Shown: piece after piece, positions 8,255 to 16,269 of the stretch
How positions within the stretch are numbered: position 1 is the first letter of the stretch
Layout: each line of letters begins with the position of its first letter
Source: Verrucomicrobiota bacterium
GTDB lineage: Bacteria; Verrucomicrobiota; Verrucomicrobiia; Chthoniobacterales; UBA10450
Length of the DNA stretch: 21,316 nucleotides
Reading direction: 5' to 3'
Assembly: GCA_003219395.1 (NCBI GenBank)
Contig: QHOR01000100.1
Coordinates: forward strand, 6,116-27,431
Notes under the pieces: generated by a model
What the model saw: the letters and a program-made list of their open reading frames with translations, nothing else
The model's database searches: none
Told to the model about the DNA's origin: nothing
Program-made: the position numbers and the translations under genes

Positions 8255-9055
8255 TCACAACGTGCCGTTTCGAGCGACAAGTGATCGCGCAAATTCGCCC
8301 ACGCGAGCTACCAAATGGGGCGAACTGGACAGTTTTTCGATTTGACTGACGAGAGCGCTTCCGATCACCGCGCCATCCGCAAAGCGCCAGACCTGACGGA
8401 CCTGTTCGGGCGTTGAGATCCCGAATCCAACTGCGACGGGGAGATCGCTCACTGCTCGCACACGTCTTACGAGAGATTCGGCGTCAGCTGGCATCTCATT
8501 TTGTGCGCCAGTAACGCCCGCGCGCGAAACAGCATAGATAAACCCGCTAGCCTGCTGGGTGATGTGCGTTAGTCGCTCGTCCGAAGTAGTCGGCGCAACG
8601 AGAAAGATCATATCTATAGCGCGATCATGAAATGCCCTGACCCAAGGCCCTGCTTCTTCCACAGTCAGATCAGTTATGAGCACTGCGTCAATTCCAACCC
8701 GCTCGGCCTCGTCTGCCAACCGCTCTCGACCGAACTTTAAGAGGGGATTGAGATAGCTGAAGAGCACAATCGGGAGGTCAATGTGCTTCTTGACGTTTGA
8801 AATGCACTTTAGTGTGTCTCCCAGTGTCACACCTTTTCGCAGCGCACGCTCGGATGCGCGCTGAATCACCTCGCCATCGGCAACTGGATCGCTGAATGGG
8901 ACACCAAGTTCAATGATATCCGCGCCAGCGGCAGCCAGTTCGACCAGGAGAAGTTCGGTGGTTGCCAGATCGGGATCGCCTGCGGTGATAAACGGTATGA
9001 ATCCACCGCGTCCGGAACCCTTCGGCTCGATGAGGGTGTCGCGCATCCGGCTCAT
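8255..9055 (-). CDS. trpA: Tryptophan synthase alpha subunit
   Basis: The protein has 266 aa, normal for TrpA. It cleaves indole-3-glycerol phosphate to indole and glyceraldehyde 3-phosphate and channels indole to TrpB. The catalytic Glu49 (in [13 protein letters not shown]) and Asp60 (in PVADG) fall at the same residue numbers as in the E. coli enzyme. Other TIM-barrel marks are [11 protein letters not shown] (19-29), the loop VSRAGVTGA, and the phosphate-binding VGFGIS. Its ATG overlaps the trpB stop by 4 bases, so translation is probably coupled. It is the last gene of the operon, followed only by a weak hairpin and the convergent MscS gene. Confidence 0.97.
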
Positions 9056-10275
9056 TTCGACTGCAAATCCGCAATGAGTTGGACATCTTTGTCGCCGCGA
9101 CCGGACAAGTTAACAATGATAGAGTCGTGTTGTGACAACTCACGTGCCACGCGAATGGCAGGCAGGATAGCATGTGAGGTCTCCAGCGCTGGGATGATTC
9201 CCTCCAATTTTGCGCAAAGTTGAAATCCTTCGAGCGCCTCGGCATCGCTCGCTCGGGCGTACTCGGCTCGTTCGCTATCATGAAGGAAGGCATGTTCCGG
9301 ACCGACCGCTGAGTAATCGAGGCCAGCGGAGATCGAATGAGACGTCGCAATCTGACCGTTGGCGTCCTGCAGCACATAGGACATGGTTCCCTGCAGAACC
9401 CCAACCTGTCCGCCGCCGCTACCTGTTTCGGTGTGAAATCTCGCAGCGTGTTGGCCTAACGAATCGCCACGCCCGGCGGCTTCTACGCCGATTAGCCGGA
9501 CCCCTTCATCTGCAATGAAAGGATGAAACAAACCGATCGCATTGGAGCCGCCACCGACACATGCAATCAGAGCACGCGGTAATTTTCCGGTGGCGGACAG
9601 AATCTCTTCACGCGCTTCGCGTCCAATCACACTTTGAAACTCGCGCACCATGAGTGGATACGGATGCGGACCGAGTGCGCTGCCGAGCAGATAGTAGGTG
9701 TCATACACGTTCGTCACCCAGTCGCGCAGCGCCTCGTTGATTGCATCCTTCAAGATGCGCGTTCCGGAATTAACAGTGATGACTTCGGCGCCGAGCAATC
9801 GCATTCGGAACACGTTGAGTGCCTGCCGCCGCACATCTTCTGCACCCATATAGATGATACAACGCAATCCGAACAAAGCGCAAACCGTCGCGGTTGCGAC
9901 GCCGTGTTGGCCTGCACCCGTCTCGGCGATGACGCGACGCTTGCCCATTCGACGCGCAAGCAATGCCTGTCCCACAGCGTTGTTGATTTTGTGCGCGCCG
10001 GTGTGCAAAAGGTCTTCACGCTTTAAATGGATTTGCGCTCCTCCGGCATCAGCTGTGAGCCGCCGCGCATGAAAAAGCGGCGTTGGGCGGCCACAGTAAT
10101 CGCGCAGCAGTTGATTGAGTTCGCCCCAGAAATTCGGGTCTTCTCGTGCGCGCAAGAACTCGTTAGTCAGTTCGTCGAGAGGCGCAACCAGGGTTTCGGG
10201 GACATAACGTCCGCCAAATTGTGACCAATGCCCGGTCTCGTCTGGCTCGCTTTTTGTAATCGGCGGTTTTTGCAT
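9052..10275 (-). CDS. trpB: Tryptophan synthase beta subunit
   Basis: The protein has 407 aa, a standard TrpB1-type length. This PLP enzyme condenses indole with serine to form tryptophan. The Schiff-base Lys96 sits in [10 protein letters not shown], the catalytic Glu118 in AETGAGQHG, and the PLP phosphate is held by the GGGSNAIG loop (241-248). The N-terminus has the usual GRYVPETL segment that contacts the alpha subunit. The gene starts 4 bases after the trpF stop and overlaps trpA by 4 bases. All expected active-site residues are present. Confidence 0.97.
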
Positions 10276-10279
10276 CGAG

Positions 10280-10918
10280 TTACGAGGCGGCGAAAACGTT
10301 TACCGAAGACGTCGCAGTCCGCACCGCCGTGATAAAATCTTGCAGAGCCTTGTGACTTTTGACTCCAGGCGCGCTCTCAACGCCGCTGCACACATCAACC
10401 GCGTGAGGTAGAACGGTTGCGATGGCCTGGCCGACATTTTGTTTGGCTAAGCCGCCGGATAGAATGAGGAATCGCGGTGCCGCTGCCCAATCACACGTCA
10501 GGCCGGTGCCGCCACGGAGGTTCGGATGATGCGCGTCAACCAGCACATCGCAATGGGCAAATAACGACACCTCTTCAGGTCGGAACTGAGGATCCGTGGC
10601 GAAGGCTCGGATCACATGAAATTCACGGGCTAATTCGCTGCATGTGCCGGGTGAAGTGTGTCCGTGCAACTGCACGCATCGAACTCCCGATACATTCGCG
10701 ATGTTCCGAATTTCTTCCGCACTGCCGTCCACGAAAACTCCGACCGGACAAACTCCATGCGGGATCGCATCGATAATTTGCCGGGCCAGCCTGGGTTCAA
10801 CATAACGTGAACTTTCGGGGTAAAAGTTGAACCCGATCATACTGGCTCCAAGATCAGCACATGCTCTGGCGTCTCGAATATTCGTGACGCCACAAATCTT
10901 GATCTGCACGGCGGTCAT
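10280..10918 (-). CDS. trpF: Phosphoribosylanthranilate isomerase
   Basis: The protein has 212 aa, a single TIM barrel that converts N-(5'-phosphoribosyl)anthranilate to CdRP by an Amadori rearrangement. The general base Cys9 lies in KICGVT (7-12) and the general acid Asp128 in VLVDAHH. The phosphate-binding ends LILSGGL and DVCSGVE are intact. It is a free-standing enzyme, not fused to trpC as in E. coli. The ATG at 10918 overlaps the trpC stop (ATGA), and trpB begins 4 bases later. Confidence 0.96.
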
Positions 10919-11757
10919 TGTTGTTGAGCTCTAATTAAACCCTCTGTAAATTGCCGAGCTTCGGCGGCGCCGATTAAATTGCGAAGAGCGGTTTCCGGAT
11001 CAGGCGCCCGCATCAATGCCTCACCTATCAGAAAACCGCGAAATCCGATTTTACGAAGACGGCGCAGGGAGTCTGCACTTTGTAATCCACTTTCGCTGAC
11101 CAAAATTCTATCTGGCCGGACTTCCGAGATTAGGCGCTCGCTTGTATTAAGTGAAACCTGAAACGTCCTGAGATCGCGGTTATTTACTCCTATAATTGTT
11201 GCCCCTGAATTCTGGGCGCGGCGCAGTTCCTCTGACGAATGCACTTCAACCACCGCGTCGAGTCCCAGTTCGTCTTCGGCCAGCACGCGCAGTTCGCCTA
11301 ACGAGATGTCGTCTAGCGCGCCGACGATCAACAATACGGCGTCGGCTCCAGCAATGGCGGCTTCGAAAATTTGGATCGAATCGATAATGAAATCTTTGCG
11401 CAAAAGCGGCAGGTGGGTAGTGGATCGCGCTGCGCGAAGATCGAGAATCGAACCACCGAAATATTGTTCGTCGGTCAGAATGGAGATCGCGCAAGCGCCA
11501 CCGCGTTGGTAGGAATGAACAATTTCACTGACCGTCAAATCGTCGCGAATCATTCCAGCGGAAGGCGATCTGCGCTTGAACTCGGCGATAATGTTTGGTC
11601 GCTGTGAGTCGACCTCCAGCGCTCGCAGCAACCGGTGCGGGCTGGCGGTCTTTCGGATCTCCAAGGCGCGCGCGCCAAAGTCGGATGACGAAGGATCCGC
11701 TCGAAGCTGCGCGACGGCGTTCCGTTTTCGATCGAGGATTTGGGAGAAAATTTTCAT
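10915..11757 (-). CDS. trpC: Indole-3-glycerol phosphate synthase
   Basis: From ATG 11757 the protein has 280 aa. A TTG at 11766, which overlaps the stop of trpE-trpD and sits 5 bases after GGGAG, would add three residues, and the choice is open. The enzyme closes the indole ring of CdRP with loss of CO2 and water. Typical marks are the start MKIFSQILDRKR, the catalytic strand NIIAEFKRRSPSAG, LLRKDFIID, GVNNRDLRTF and LVSESGL. The gene lies between the trpE-trpD fusion and trpF with overlaps or near-overlaps on both sides, so coupled translation is likely. Confidence 0.96.
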   Translation of the reverse strand: MKIFSQILDRKRNAVAQLRADPSSSDFGARALEIRKTASPHRLLRALEVDSQRPNIIAEFKRRSPSAGMIRDDLTVSEIVHSYQRGGACAISILTDEQYFGGSILDLRAARSTTHLPLLRKDFIIDSIQIFEAAIAGADAVLLIVGALDDISLGELRVLAEDELGLDAVVEVHSSEELRRAQNSGATIIGVNNRDLRTFQVSLNTSERLISEVRPDRILVSESGLQSADSLRRLRKIGFRGFLIGEALMRAPDPETALRNLIGAAEARQFTEGLIRAQQQ

Positions 11758-11762
11758 GACGT

Positions 11763-14360
11763 TCAATTCGTCTCCCGGACTAACGAATCCAGCTTCGATG
11801 CTGCACGTCCGCTGTCGATGCTTTCACGAGCAAACCTCGCTGCCGATCGGAGATCCGGGGCAACGCCTGCGAGATGGAGCGCCGCGGCGGCGTTTGCAAT
11901 GACCAAATTCCGCGCCGGAGCGATTGTTTTCGTCTGCTCCCCGAGCAAAATTGCGCGGATAAGCCGGGCGTTTTCGTCCGGGCTCTTCCGACGAAATCCA
12001 TCGAAGTGTTGCCGTTCCAATCCAAAGTCGTCAGGCGATAATGTAAATGTTTCCAGATCCCCGGTGGACGAACAGGCGGCAACGAACGTTTCGTCCGCAA
12101 TCGTTATTTCATCCAGGCCATCAGCGCCATGTACCACCCATGCTTTGCGCACGCCAAGACAAGCAAGGGCCGCCGCGACCCGCTCAAGTAGCGAGCGATG
12201 CCAGACGCCCACGATCTGAAACGGCGCCCGCGCTGGATTGGTAAGAGGGCCAAGCAAGTTGAATGTAGTTTGCAGCCCGAGCTCACGACGCACATGCGCG
12301 ACGCGGGCCGTCGCAGCATGAAAAAGCGGCGCGAACATGAAACAAATTTCATGCTGGTTGAGGCAACGCTCTACGATCTCCGGTGGAGCGGCTGTGTTGA
12401 CGCCTAGCGCCTGGAGAACGTCGGCGCTACCACAACGCGATGTTGCCGCTCGCGAGCCATGTTTCGCTACGGGCAAACCGGCACCCGCAATGACGAAAGC
12501 CGCCGCTGTTGAAACATTAAATGGTTTTGCAGTGCTCGAGCCAGTCCCCGCTGTATCGATGAAACGCGCGTGACGCGATCGCAACGGCAGCGCACGATTT
12601 CGCATTGCTTCGGCAATTCCTGCGAGCTCATCCAAGGTCTCGCCTTTTACTGCCAGACTAGTAAGCGCGGCTGCTATTTGAGCGTCTGTAGCCATTGGAT
12701 TCAGCAGACCGTCTAGAAACTTTCCAGCCTCCACACGGCTGAGATTCTCACCACGCATCAAGCGCAGTGTTAGCTCACGCAGTTCGAAATCGCCGGCTTC
12801 GGTCGGCTTGCATCCGTCTTTGCCTCTTCGTAGTGGAGTAATCCTTGTCGCCATCGACATCGCTTTTGCCATTGCATGCGCTTTATTAAGAGTTTCCTCG
12901 TATTCCGAACGTGGATTGGAGTCAGCGACAATTCCGGCGCCAGCTTGAAAATACGCCTTTCCTTTTTTCAAGATCGCGCAGCGCAACGCGATGCATGAGT
13001 CGACATTGCCTTCAAAGCCCAGATAGCCGATCACGCCGGCATAGCAGCCGCGCCTGGTTCTTTCCAGTTCGCTGATGATTTGCATGGCACGAATTTTCGG
13101 CGCCCCGGACACGGTGCCTGCGGGAAACGTTGCTTTGAGCAAATCGAAGCCGGTGCAGCCGGTACGCAGGCGACCAGTGACATTTGAAACAAGGTGCATC
13201 ACGTGGCTATAACGCTCGATGCCCATCAATTCAGTCACGCGCACGGTACCGAACTCTGAAACCCGGCCGACATCGTTGCGCGCGAGATCGACGAGCATGG
13301 TGTGTTCGGCCCGTTCCTTGGGATCGGCAAGGAGTTCGGCCGCGTTTTTCTCGTCCTGCGCAGATGTGGCGCCGCGCGGTCGCGTGCCAGCGAGAGGACG
13401 GATTTCCACTGCGTCTCCAATCAGCCGGACATGCATCTCCGGCGAGCTCCCAACGAGCGCAAAATCCGGCCCGAACCTGAGACAAAACATGTAGGGCGAC
13501 GGATTGATGAAGCGAAGGCATCGATAAAAATCGAGCGGATCGCCAGTAAAATCGGATTCGAACCGCTGCGACAAGACGACCTGGAAGATGTCACCTGCGC
13601 GAATGTATTCCTTCGCTCGTTCTACCGCCCGTACGAACTCTTCCGGATGAAAATTGCTGCGAACCGGCTCTGTTTCGCAATCTGCCGGTGGAACAAGTGG
13701 AAGATCGCCGGGTTTCGCAAGGTCATGAATGATAGCGTCGATCGATTCAACCGCTCGCGCATAGACTTTTTCAACTGGGCCATCTTCAAGGAACGCGTTT
13801 GCGACGATCTTTAGTATGCGCAGCCGATGATCGAAGATGAGAAGACTGCCTGTAATCATGAAGATCATCTCGGGCAATCGCGGTTCAGCGCGCTCTGCTA
13901 GGGTAACTTTGGGTTCGAAGGAATGGATCGCCTCATAGCCGACGAAACCGACAGCACCGCCGCTGAATCGCGGCAGTTGCGGATGCGACACAAATTGATA
14001 ACGCGCCATCAATTTGCGGAGCTCATCCAACGGATCGCCTGTTAATTCAGCCCGCCGTTCGATTCCCAGTTCGGCGATCTGTAGCTCATGTCCATTGCTC
14101 TTCATCACGATCCGGGGCTCGATCCCGACGAAAGAGAAGCGTCCTGACTCGTCATTTTTCTCAGTCGATTCGAATAGGAAACTGTAACCGCTTTTGTCCA
14201 GCTTCTTGAACGCCGAAACAGGCGTTTCGTTATCGGCGATAAACTCTGCGAAAATCGGGATGACATTGCCGTGTTTCGCCAGCTCTGTGAATTCGTCCAG
14301 AGTCGGAGTCAGTTGAGTTGTCATCTGCTGTGCCGTGTATAACGCCTCTTTAGGTTGCAT
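11763..14360 (-). CDS. trpE-trpD: Fused anthranilate synthase component I - anthranilate phosphoribosyltransferase
   Basis: One uninterrupted frame of 865 aa. Residues about 15-505 are TrpE: the feedback-site-like segment SGYSFLFES (57-65), the chorismate-binding core GDIFQVVLSQRF (256-267), RPLAGTRPRG (321-330), KERAEHTMLVDLARND (348-363) and GTVSGAPKIRAM (415-426). After a short linker (about 505-525), residues 526-865 are a full TrpD: DTAGTGSST (602-610), VAKHGSR (631-637), NLLGPLTNPA (701-710) and DGLDE (747-751). The protein would turn chorismate into anthranilate (with TrpG ammonia) and then attach phosphoribose from PRPP. The PRPP loop reads GTGSST where the commonest form is GTGGDG. 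The start is ATG 14360, or ATG 14324 without the first 12 residues; neither has a strong Shine-Dalgarno. It begins 30 bases after trpG and overlaps or abuts trpC. I see no sign of a missed stop between the domains. Confidence 0.95.
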   Translation of the reverse strand: MQPKEALYTAQQMTTQLTPTLDEFTELAKHGNVIPIFAEFIADNETPVSAFKKLDKSGYSFLFESTEKNDESGRFSFVGIEPRIVMKSNGHELQIAELGIERRAELTGDPLDELRKLMARYQFVSHPQLPRFSGGAVGFVGYEAIHSFEPKVTLAERAEPRLPEMIFMITGSLLIFDHRLRILKIVANAFLEDGPVEKVYARAVESIDAIIHDLAKPGDLPLVPPADCETEPVRSNFHPEEFVRAVERAKEYIRAGDIFQVVLSQRFESDFTGDPLDFYRCLRFINPSPYMFCLRFGPDFALVGSSPEMHVRLIGDAVEIRPLAGTRPRGATSAQDEKNAAELLADPKERAEHTMLVDLARNDVGRVSEFGTVRVTELMGIERYSHVMHLVSNVTGRLRTGCTGFDLLKATFPAGTVSGAPKIRAMQIISELERTRRGCYAGVIGYLGFEGNVDSCIALRCAILKKGKAYFQAGAGIVADSNPRSEYEETLNKAHAMAKAMSMATRITPLRRGKDGCKPTEAGDFELRELTLRLMRGENLSRVEAGKFLDGLLNPMATDAQIAAALTSLAVKGETLDELAGIAEAMRNRALPLRSRHARFIDTAGTGSSTAKPFNVSTAAAFVIAGAGLPVAKHGSRAATSRCGSADVLQALGVNTAAPPEIVERCLNQHEICFMFAPLFHAATARVAHVRRELGLQTTFNLLGPLTNPARAPFQIVGVWHRSLLERVAAALACLGVRKAWVVHGADGLDEITIADETFVAACSSTGDLETFTLSPDDFGLERQHFDGFRRKSPDENARLIRAILLGEQTKTIAPARNLVIANAAAALHLAGVAPDLRSAARFARESIDSGRAASKLDSLVRETN

Positions 14361-14390
14361 TCGCAGAGACTGCAGATTTAACCTGAGCTC

Positions 14391-14998
<608 letters not shown>

Positions 14999-15009
14999 GC
15001 TGGAATTCG

Positions 15010-16053
15010 TTAGGCCGCCTGGGATTGCGCTGGAGTGTCAGTAATCAATGGAGTGGTAAGGTCGCGGATGGCGAGCACTTGCCTGATGAGCTGAGCGTAC
15101 TCGGTGGGCGTCAGAGCTTGCGCGGCGTCGGAAAGAGCGAGCTCTGGATGATTGTGGACTTCCAACATGAGTCCGTCCGCTCCAACTGCGACTCCTGCCC
15201 GCGCGAGTGGGGTAACCATGTACGCGCTCCCTGTGCCGTGTGATGGATCGACAATTACCGGCAAATGAGAAATTCGCCGGATCGCCGGCACCGAAGCAAG
15301 GTCGAGGGTGTTACGCGTATGTTGCGCGAACGTACGAACACCGCGTTCGCAAAGAATGACGTTATAATTCCCCTCAGCCATGACGTATTCGGCAGCGAGC
15401 AACCATTCCTCGAGCGTTGCGGCCATTCCCCGTTTCAACAGAACCGGTAACTTCGAGCGACCAGCTTTCCTAAGGAGCGAAAAGTTCTGCATGTTGCGCG
15501 CGCCAATTTGAATGACGTCGCCATACTGTTCGATTAAGTCGATATGAGATGCTTCGAGCGCTTCGGTGACGATCTTTAGTCCAAACGCCTGGCGAATCTC
15601 GGATATGATTTTCCAGCCCTTCTCTCCAAGACCTTGAAATGCGTAGGGAGAAGTTCGAGGCTTCCACACGCTCCCTCGAAAGAAGCGCGCGCCGCTTTGC
15701 TTCACCGCTTTCGCCACTGCGAATGCCTGATCGTGACTTTCGATCGCGCACGGTCCAGCGATAATGGCGAGTTCACTTCCTCCGATTGTGGCGTCCCCAA
15801 CTCGCACCACCGTCTTTTCCGGACGCAGATCAAGTGTGATTAACTTGTACGGCTTGGTGACCCGGATGACTTCCGCGACACCCGCCAGGTTTTCAAAACG
15901 CCTGCCATCAACAGGACCTGTGTTACCTGTGATGCCAATCGCTGTTCGCGTCGCGCCGGGCATCGGATGGGGACGCAGCCCGATGTTCTGGATTACACTT
16001 ATGACTGCATCAATTTCCTGCCCGGCAGCGCCAGGTTTCATTACGATCAACAT
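15010..16053 (-). CDS. aroF: 3-deoxy-7-phosphoheptulonate (DAHP) synthase, Thermotoga-type with N-terminal regulatory domain
   Basis: The protein has 347 aa. It condenses phosphoenolpyruvate and erythrose 4-phosphate, the first step to chorismate. Residues about 1-70 form the ferredoxin-like (ACT-like) regulatory domain seen in Thermotoga-type enzymes (MLIVMKPGA start; [10 protein letters not shown]). The catalytic barrel follows: [10 protein letters not shown] (97-106), [35 protein letters not shown] and [10 protein letters not shown]. The metal-binding Cys (GPCAIES), His and Asp motifs are all visible. It is the first structural gene of the operon, 13 bases before trpG, so aromatic supply and tryptophan synthesis would be co-regulated. 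ATG 16053 has no Shine-Dalgarno. The symbol is given by activity; paralogue naming (aroF/aroG/aroH) is arbitrary here. Confidence 0.93.
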
Positions 16054-16099
16054 ATGGTTAAAGAGGGTTGAGTTATTTTCATTGGTGCAAACGCCAGAT

Positions 16100-16116
16100 C
16101 TCTCCTGAAGGGAGAG
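16100..16116 (-). other. Second hairpin in the aroF-trp leader
   Basis: On the minus strand CTCTCC (16116-16111) and GGAGAG (16105-16100) pair perfectly around a CTTCA loop. It lies between the T-tract hairpin (16121-16151) and the aroF start codon, and no T run follows it. Pyrimidine-rich CTCC repeats precede it, so the stem can slip. It may be part of a leader structure, or a stray copy of the CTCTCC-type palindromes common in many genomes. Confidence 0.4.
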
Positions 16117-16120
16117 GGAG

Positions 16121-16151
16121 AAAATCAGCGTCCCGTTGGAAAACGGTCGCT
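16121..16151 (-). terminator. Candidate attenuator hairpin with T tract upstream of aroF
   Basis: Directly after the leader-ORF stop, the minus strand holds AGCG (16151-16148) pairing with CGCT (16130-16127), and CCGTT (16146-16142) pairing with AACGG (16137-16133), with loop TTCC and a 1x2 internal loop. GA and TTTT (16124-16121) follow, as in a modest intrinsic terminator. A competing fold exists: CGTTGG (16179-16174) with CCAACG (16139-16134), plus CGCT (16173-16170) with AGCG. That fold would undo the hairpin and enclose the two Trp codons. This is consistent with transcription attenuation of the aroF-trp operon but not proof of it. Confidence 0.45.
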
Positions 16152-16153
16152 TT

Positions 16154-16231
16154 CTATCGCCACCAGACGAGCGCCAACGCGAAGGCGAGCGGCCTTCGAA
16201 GCTGTGTCGAATACAGAATGTCGACGCTCAT
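16154..16231 (-). CDS. Candidate trp leader peptide (25 aa, ends Trp-Trp-Arg)
   Basis: From ATG 16231 a 25-codon ORF runs to TAG at 16154 and ends in ALALVWWR. The two adjacent Trp codons (TGG at 16165-16163 and 16162-16160) are the third- and second-last sense codons. Tandem Trp codons close to the stop, just upstream of a trp operon, are the signature of attenuation leaders such as E. coli trpL (which ends GWWRTS). The hairpin with a T tract starts 3 bases after the stop. Weak points: the predicted transcript start (near 16234) leaves almost no 5' leader, so initiation would be leaderless. No Shine-Dalgarno is seen, and a shorter TTG start (16177) would give only seven residues. The peptide itself needs no function. 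Confidence 0.42.
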   Translation of the reverse strand: MSVDILYSTQLRRPLAFALALVWWR

Positions 16232-16240
16232 TTCGGAAGG

Positions 16241-16269
16241 ATTATAATGGCGAACCTGTCGCATGTCGA
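16241..16269 (-). promoter_or_regulatory. Near-consensus sigma-70 promoter of the aroF-trp operon
   Basis: On the minus strand TCGACA (16269-16264, five of six to TTGACA) is followed by exactly 17 bases and a perfect TATAAT (16246-16241). The predicted transcript start is near 16234, about 180 bases before the aroF ATG. It is placed properly to drive aroF-trpG-trpED-C-F-B-A and lies in a gap with no convincing longer gene. I saw no obvious operator palindrome over it. Confidence 0.55.

Follow-up and report, generated by a model that had tools for sequence, protein, structure and literature searches.

Can the tryptophan pathway of a bacterium be governed by a ribosome-mediated attenuator whose parts do not stand in the order known from Escherichia coli? 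The question is raised by a short region upstream of aroF in a window of 21,316 nt (the whole stretch of DNA analysed here), in which an earlier note, made from the sequence alone, had seen a candidate trp attenuator. Relatives of this aroF that carry names belong to the Candidatus Udaeobacter group of Verrucomicrobiota, and the genome of the window was assigned there; the Udaeobacter soil group has been described as among the most dominant on land (PMC7343977). The aroF gene, coding for DAHP synthase (15010..16053, minus strand; PF00793 and PF18152), is the first gene of an operon. Close behind it on the same strand, with small gaps, come trpG, a trpE-trpD fusion, trpC, trpF, trpB and trpA (8255..14996), so that Pfam domains and gene order bear out the presence of aroF and the trp genes downstream of the leader. 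The leader would place DAHP synthase and the entire trp pathway under single control. As judged by comparison with related genomes, it is real and conserved, and most likely a Trp-responsive attenuator of a new layout. The trpE-trpD fusion is a single ORF of 865 aa (window 11763-14360, minus strand) with both Pfam domain sets; contiguous trpE-trpD matches were also seen in L063, L065 and L099, and separate matches in many other relatives of the genus.

All the parts named in the earlier note are present on the minus strand, to which the window features described below belong: a promoter, a short ORF ending TGG TGG CGA and a hairpin behind its stop codon. The leader ORF (16154..16231; ATG at 16231, TAG at 16156-16154) has 25 codons before its TAG, MSVDILYSTQLRRPLAFALALVWWR, and ends V-W-W-R. 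Its two Trp codons TGG TGG (16160..16165) are followed by CGA, the second TGG lying at stop-6. Across the 18 readable copies, which comprise 17 loci of the genus and one in G079, a genome of another genus, the ORF is always open, with 23, 25, 26 or 27 codons, and always has Trp at stop-6. An Arg codon follows this Trp in 16 copies, and the two others end in Trp (LLLWW and AWWW) with the stop-6 Trp in the same place. An extra Trp is found at stop-9 in 7/18 copies and at stop-3 in 2/18, whereas in 10/18 the ORF ends with just one Trp codon; the extra adjacent Trp codons are spread over three distinct parts of the aroF tree, from which the G079 copy is absent. A 19th copy (L016/L048), masked by N over the 5' half of the ORF, has the readable end ALVAWR-stop; it was left out of the ORF, promoter and energy counts, and its row was kept in the 19-row alignment.

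Several features suggest that the leader ORF is probably translated. The 13 copies of 27 codons have stops in frame +1 in every case and in frame +2 in nine, mean BLOSUM similarity is 1.85 in frame against 1.05 and 1.08 in the other frames, and differences over the whole ORF are commoner at third positions (0.421 versus 0.329 and 0.348). Codons 6-18 have no such third-position excess (0.423 versus 0.455 and 0.436), and consequently the middle of the peptide appears to be free of selection for its sequence, as expected of a leader peptide. Because this conserved tiny ORF ends in Trp codons just before hairpins that would switch, the leader probably senses Trp shortage by a waiting ribosome, and it can be placed in the Trp-sensing class with considerable confidence.

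The distribution of the leader was followed with a covariance model built from 16 copies. Among the 35 genomes of the genus set it matched 18 loci in 17 genomes (E<1e-15), 16 of these loci being its own training rows; two genus loci and the G079 copy were new to it. G079 was also the only genome with a match (cut-off E 0.01) among 48 of other genera of the family, and none of the 33 stretches examined upstream of aroF in 32 genomes outside the genus (L151 being partly N) contained a Trp-pair ORF. The scan of the fetched loci covered 56 of them (L062-L130 in part; L131-L142 left out). Within the genus set there are 25 close aroF copies (79% identity or more). The leader precedes 18 of them and is absent from five (L007, L018, L022, L023 and L080, the last being the second G024 copy), which were left unaligned; two more, L021 and L024, come without upstream sequence. 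In this sampling, the element characterizes part of the genus and occurs elsewhere as one stray copy, which could be due to transfer or mis-binning. The aroF gene behind the stray leader (L062) has an interrupted reading, with matches to 1-110 and 131-334 in different frames, which may reflect transfer, decay or mis-binning. Alignment of relatives had been proposed in the earlier note as a check, and ORF, Trp codon and stems are all conserved in the 18 readable copies.

The sigma70-like promoter, TCGACA-17-TATAAT (16241..16269), has TCGACA at 16269-16264 and TATAAT at 16246-16241. TCGACA is kept in 16 of the 17 copies with sequence at that place, the remaining one reading TAGACA; L015, at a contig end, was left out of the promoter count together with L016/L048. 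In 17/17 copies 7-10 nt separate the end of the best-matching -10 box, weak in some of them, from the leader ATG. This distance leads us to predict that the ORF is leaderless, with a 5' untranslated stretch of 0 to about 3 nt, in agreement with the nearly leaderless initiation put forward previously. A genus-wide leaderless habit was considered and rejected: in 378 kb of genus DNA the excess of TANNNT before 178 first ATGs is small (7 at 12 nt, versus 0-5 elsewhere) and at a spacing other than that of the leader.

The leader RNA can be divided into five segments. Segment 1 (ATGAGCGTCGAC, 16220..16231) contains the start codon and in the window forms 12 bp with segment 2 (GTTGGCGCTCGT, 16167..16178), which lies directly 5' of the Trp codons; the fold of the window leader adds an inner stem to this 1:2 hairpin, CGAAGGC/GCCTTCG (16180..16198). 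Segment 3 (AGCGACCGTT, 16142..16151), in which AGCGACCGT is identical in 18/18 copies, can pair with segment 4 (AACGGGACGCT, 16127..16137) as AGCGaCCGTT/AACGGgaCGCT (16151-16127), followed by GATTTT with a T run at 16124-16121. The pyrimidine tract behind it (TTTTCTCCCTCTCCCTTC, 16107..16124) is a weak U-tract and a possible Rho-binding stretch. The rival partner of segment 4 is segment 5 (GGCGTTTG, 16088..16095), and the 4:5 arm encloses an inner hairpin, CTCTCC/GGAGAG (16100..16116), seen in the fold and with a counterpart in relatives. The CGCT of segment 4 is common to 3:4 and 4:5, both conserved, so that the two pairings should be mutually exclusive. The distance between the first base of the stop codon and hairpin 3:4 is 5 nt in 17/18 copies and 6 nt in one. 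The Trp codon stands between segments 2 and 3 in 18/18, an order unlike that of E. coli, as had been remarked.

Two of the pairing claims made earlier are not supported as conserved features. The T-tract hairpin is there, at a fixed distance in 17/18 copies, but its T run is short and unconserved: the 8 nt behind segment 4 hold 3-6 T, the longest run within 12 nt is 1-4, and in none of the 18 copies does hairpin 3:4 make a GC-rich terminator with an uninterrupted U-tract. The rival fold CGTTGG:CCAACG can indeed pair in the window (-11.6 kcal/mol), but it is kept in 5/18 copies only, with 6 bp in L002 (the window), L003 and L004 and as CGTCG:CGACG in L015 and L073; it is broken or changed in the other 13. 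The conserved competitor of 3:4 is segment 5, downstream and beyond the region that the earlier note had covered. A conserved pairing between segments 2 and 3 was also rejected, the mean energy with own and with foreign partners being equal (-8.16 and -8.16).

The pairings were evaluated in a 19-row alignment whose counts favour the helices of the model used to fit it, namely the inner CTCTC stem, 1:2 and 3:4. In it 86% of the cells of the 1:2 helix are paired and 98% of those of 3:4, where five of six counted pairs are invariant; together the two helices reach 90.3%, versus 27-54% with slid partners. Their covariation is weak, 36/500 shuffles reaching the score, and in an unfitted 16-row alignment 1:2, 3:4 and the CTCTC stem have no covariation above shuffles (367/500). 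For 4:5 with its inner stem the covariation score is 0.181 versus 0.141 for shuffled alignments (sd 0.012) and was reached in 1/500, the 10 doubly changed cells being reached in 12/500. Taken by itself, the outer 4:5 helix, which played no part in fitting the alignment, scores 0.106 versus 0.076 (4/500), with seven doubly changed cells (50/500), and one slid control (+2, 9 pairs) scores higher, at 0.135. These shuffles ignore the relatedness of the copies, and the four rows of the window's own clade, being out of register at segment 5, weigh against 4:5. One example is given by L013 and L014, which have UGCGC in segment 4 and GCGCA in segment 5 where most copies have GACGC and GCGUC. The 4:5 pairing is supported by covariation, and 1:2 and 3:4 by conservation, at the level of aligned sequences. 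Permutation tests on the duplexes gave nothing significant (1:2, 582/5000; 3:4, 277/5000; 4:5, 559/5000). The folding energy is under the shuffled mean in all 16 copies tested of the 19 (z from -0.15 to -3.42; -2.67 in the window).

The mechanism that we propose builds on the ORF, the Trp codon, the spacing, the pairings and the operon, which the comparison supports; from these we infer the leaderless start, the response to Trp, the OFF pairing and the termination step. RNA polymerase would begin at the leader ATG or no more than about 3 nt away, and a ribosome would load on the bare 5' end. If none has arrived before segment 2 is transcribed, 1:2 would shut over the start codon. A loaded ribosome would translate up to the stop-6 Trp codon and, when Trp is scarce, would wait there with its front edge against 3:4, which begins 11 nt downstream, thus preventing this hairpin while polymerase crosses the pyrimidine tract. 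Once segment 5 had been transcribed, segment 4 would pair with it and transcription would go on. When Trp is abundant, or when the leader is not translated, no ribosome would stand there, 3:4 would form and transcription would end early, through either a weak intrinsic terminator or Rho. We regard this Trp-sensing attenuation of the aroF-trp operon, taken as a complete mechanism, as plausible, with doubt slightly outweighing confidence.

Its most delicate step is the assignment of the ON and OFF states. With the stop-6 Trp codon in the A site, hairpin 3:4 lies 11 nt beyond the first base of that codon; with the stop codon there, the distance is 5 nt. If the ribosome edge is assumed to lie 13 nt ahead, 3:4 is blocked at either position and segment 4 finds its partner downstream. 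The helicase point of the ribosome, known from work on frameshifting, lies about 9 nt ahead; with this value a ribosome stalled at Trp leaves room for 3:4, and one at the stop opens it. Two opposite assignments therefore survive, since the outcome depends on which of these distances applies. We prefer 3:4 as the OFF state because this sign suits a biosynthetic operon, because at least 5 T in 8 follow segment 4 in 13/18 copies, and because a ribosome shortly upstream represses terminators in E. coli, where a terminator closely following the stop codon is described as almost fully repressed (PMC4824070). That a parked ribosome blocks 3:4 is nevertheless a tentative assignment, somewhat less likely than not.

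Several observations weigh against the proposed mechanism. Since a ribosome at the stop would cover segment 3 as well, dwell time would have to provide the discrimination. Polymerase has already left the pyrimidine tract when segment 5 is synthesized, and 4:5 consequently cannot pre-empt 3:4. Behind segment 4 only 3-4 T in 8 are present in 5/18 copies, and U-tract hairpins look rare in the genus. The stop-9 Trp sits 14 nt from the hairpin, a worse position for blocking, and the probability of 3:4 is below 0.5 in 13/18 copies even with segment 3 free. To these must be added the scarce covariation of 1:2 and 3:4, the non-significant permutation tests and the higher-scoring slid control of 4:5, as well as the single terminal Trp codon of ten copies, the lack of a third-position excess in mid-ORF and the five close aroF copies of the genus without a leader. 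A more specific form of the proposal is a leaderless attenuator of the one-shot kind. The leader could be read by no ribosome but the first, which binds the exposed 5' AUG ahead of the synthesis of segment 2, since the finished RNA would lock the start codon in a helix of up to 12 bp; that ribosome, parked on the Trp codon 11 nt before the hairpin, would itself be the antiterminator, without an upstream antiterminator helix, and the exchange between 3:4 and 4:5 would fix the decision. In this full detail, the scheme is rather unlikely. The layout, with its hidden start codon, its control codon at the ORF end and a hairpin at a fixed 11 nt, probes how near a ribosome must be to shift the choice of hairpin.

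The same Trp-sensing leader would work with the opposite assignment if the Trp-stalled ribosome left 3:4 free as the ON state and a ribosome at the stop melted the foot of 3:4, so that 4:5 formed as the OFF state; this would be the E. coli logic shifted one hairpin downstream. The order of transcription, in which 3:4 is the first to form, fits; covariation supports 4:5; the distance from stop to stem is fixed; and the extra Trp is commoner at stop-9 than at stop-3. Folding with a ribosome at the stop lets segment 4 pair downstream with a mean probability of 0.79, and 3:4 has a mean of 0.33 with the ribosome at Trp. However, 4:5 has no visible OFF output: there is no U-tract behind segment 5 in any of the 18 copies, and masking of the aroF start as a translation control was rejected, as its mean accessibility hardly alters between the states (0.60 versus 0.58). 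We consider the opposite assignment unlikely.

Similarly improbable, though to be taken seriously as an alternative, is a control resting on Rho, of the type of tna or the mycobacterial cys leaders, in which a ribosome beside the stop would shield the pyrimidine-rich untranslated stretch before aroF and the hairpins would only tune the response. A pyrimidine run of at least 8 occurs in 15/18 leaders, compared with 16% of random 97-nt stretches, and Rho has been proposed for leaders with cysteine codons near the stop (PMC1262725). In 378 kb of DNA from the genus (L176-L195), few gene ends have a hairpin with at least 5 T in 8: 4.2% of 168 gene ends and 2.7% of 74 convergent ends, compared with 1.2% of 168 intragenic places. 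U-tract terminators thus seem to be little used by the organism, a hint that termination in the genus depends mainly on Rho. On the other hand, the C/G ratio of the 78 nt before aroF exceeds the 90th percentile in only 6/18 copies, the pyrimidine tract doubles as a helix arm, and the hairpins are conserved here, unlike those of the mycobacterial leaders. Alternatively, the leader peptide or RNA may be conserved for an input other than Trp, such as the translation level, with the Trp codon kept for the RNA. This could account for the ten copies with one terminal Trp codon and for the nearly invariant nucleotides around the stop and segment 3. It is very unlikely, however, given the trp genes that follow and the additional Trp codons next to this one at three distinct places in the aroF tree.

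If the leader is indeed a Trp-sensing attenuator, this would be the first trp attenuator described in Verrucomicrobiota within the literature searched, where titles on trp attenuation in Verrucomicrobia, or on Udaeobacter and tryptophan, announced no such leader and one concerned enzyme evolution. Its nearest functional counterpart is E. coli trpL (Rfam RF00513, Trp_leader), described as a short ORF with two Trp codons then Arg and with mutually exclusive hairpins (PMC1183508); the present leader likewise has a Trp-Trp-Arg ORF before trp genes and hairpins that exclude each other. In trpL, however, the Trp codons are within segment 1 and the stop precedes segment 2, whereas here they follow segment 2, beside the stop. 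The hairpin stands directly behind the stop codon, a strong U-tract is missing, the start is predicted to be leaderless and aroF comes first in the operon. The window leader had no Rfam match at gathering score, and E up to 10 gave two unrelated weak matches. It would thus work like trpL, and is set apart from the trpL RNA family because layout, U-tract and Rfam model all fail.

Individual features of the leader have precedents. The trpL (rnTrpL) transcript of Sinorhizobium meliloti begins with the ATG of its leader ORF (PMC7298713), a leaderless start that here is predicted only; by its description that system is distinct, with a 14-codon peptide before trpE(G) and the usual antiterminator and terminator. 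The mycobacterial cys leaders, described as leaderless poly-Cys ORFs, share control codons near the stop, pyrimidine stretches and a possible role of Rho (PMC1262725). They differ in using cysteine codons, and the text available for them reports no conserved terminator-like hairpins, whereas the pairings are conserved here. In Corynebacterium glutamicum a leader peptide also precedes a DAHP synthase gene, aroF, but its codons are Phe-Tyr-Phe rather than Trp (PMC4046766) and the phylum is another. Each is already known on its own: trp leaders that are leaderless, and control codons that adjoin the stop. Their combination was found nowhere in the literature searched, which covered subscription papers partly.

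Leaders of similar appearance were observed outside the aligned set. In Acidobacteriota (L093 and L098), a leader ORF, M(K/T)T(S/T)NYNSRTINAAWYWWSVNVGGCVVWR(A/E)M, lies just upstream of an aroF-trp operon. This ORF (AAWYWW...VVWR) resembles the present leader in its position, but further Trp codons lie in mid-ORF and the hairpin behind it is GC-rich and followed by 7 T, a classical layout. L098 scores 12.6 bits against the covariance model (E 0.29 over 56 loci, 0.03 over 8). For Acidobacteria, the accessible literature on trp leader-peptide attenuation yielded only reinitiation. L128 has a Trp-pair ORF starting from GTG, without the classical layout of L093 and L098. Upstream of aroF in L018 and L080 (Udaeobacter type), where the covariance model has no match at the leader, there is a short ORF, MTRELFLSTW-stop, with AGCG...CGCTGA behind its stop and a 7-bp alternative, TACGCTG:CAGCGTA; it has the look of a divergent form of the present design.

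Finally, the palindrome TGGTAAC-N6-GTTACCA, absent from the window, occupies a fixed place 71-72 nt upstream of the leader ATG in 7/17 leaders (L003, L004, L009, L011, L012, L017 and L020), perfect in six and with one outer mismatch in L012. Four more perfect sites were found near other genes in the 35 genus genomes, and the palindrome is likely to be the operator of some regulator.
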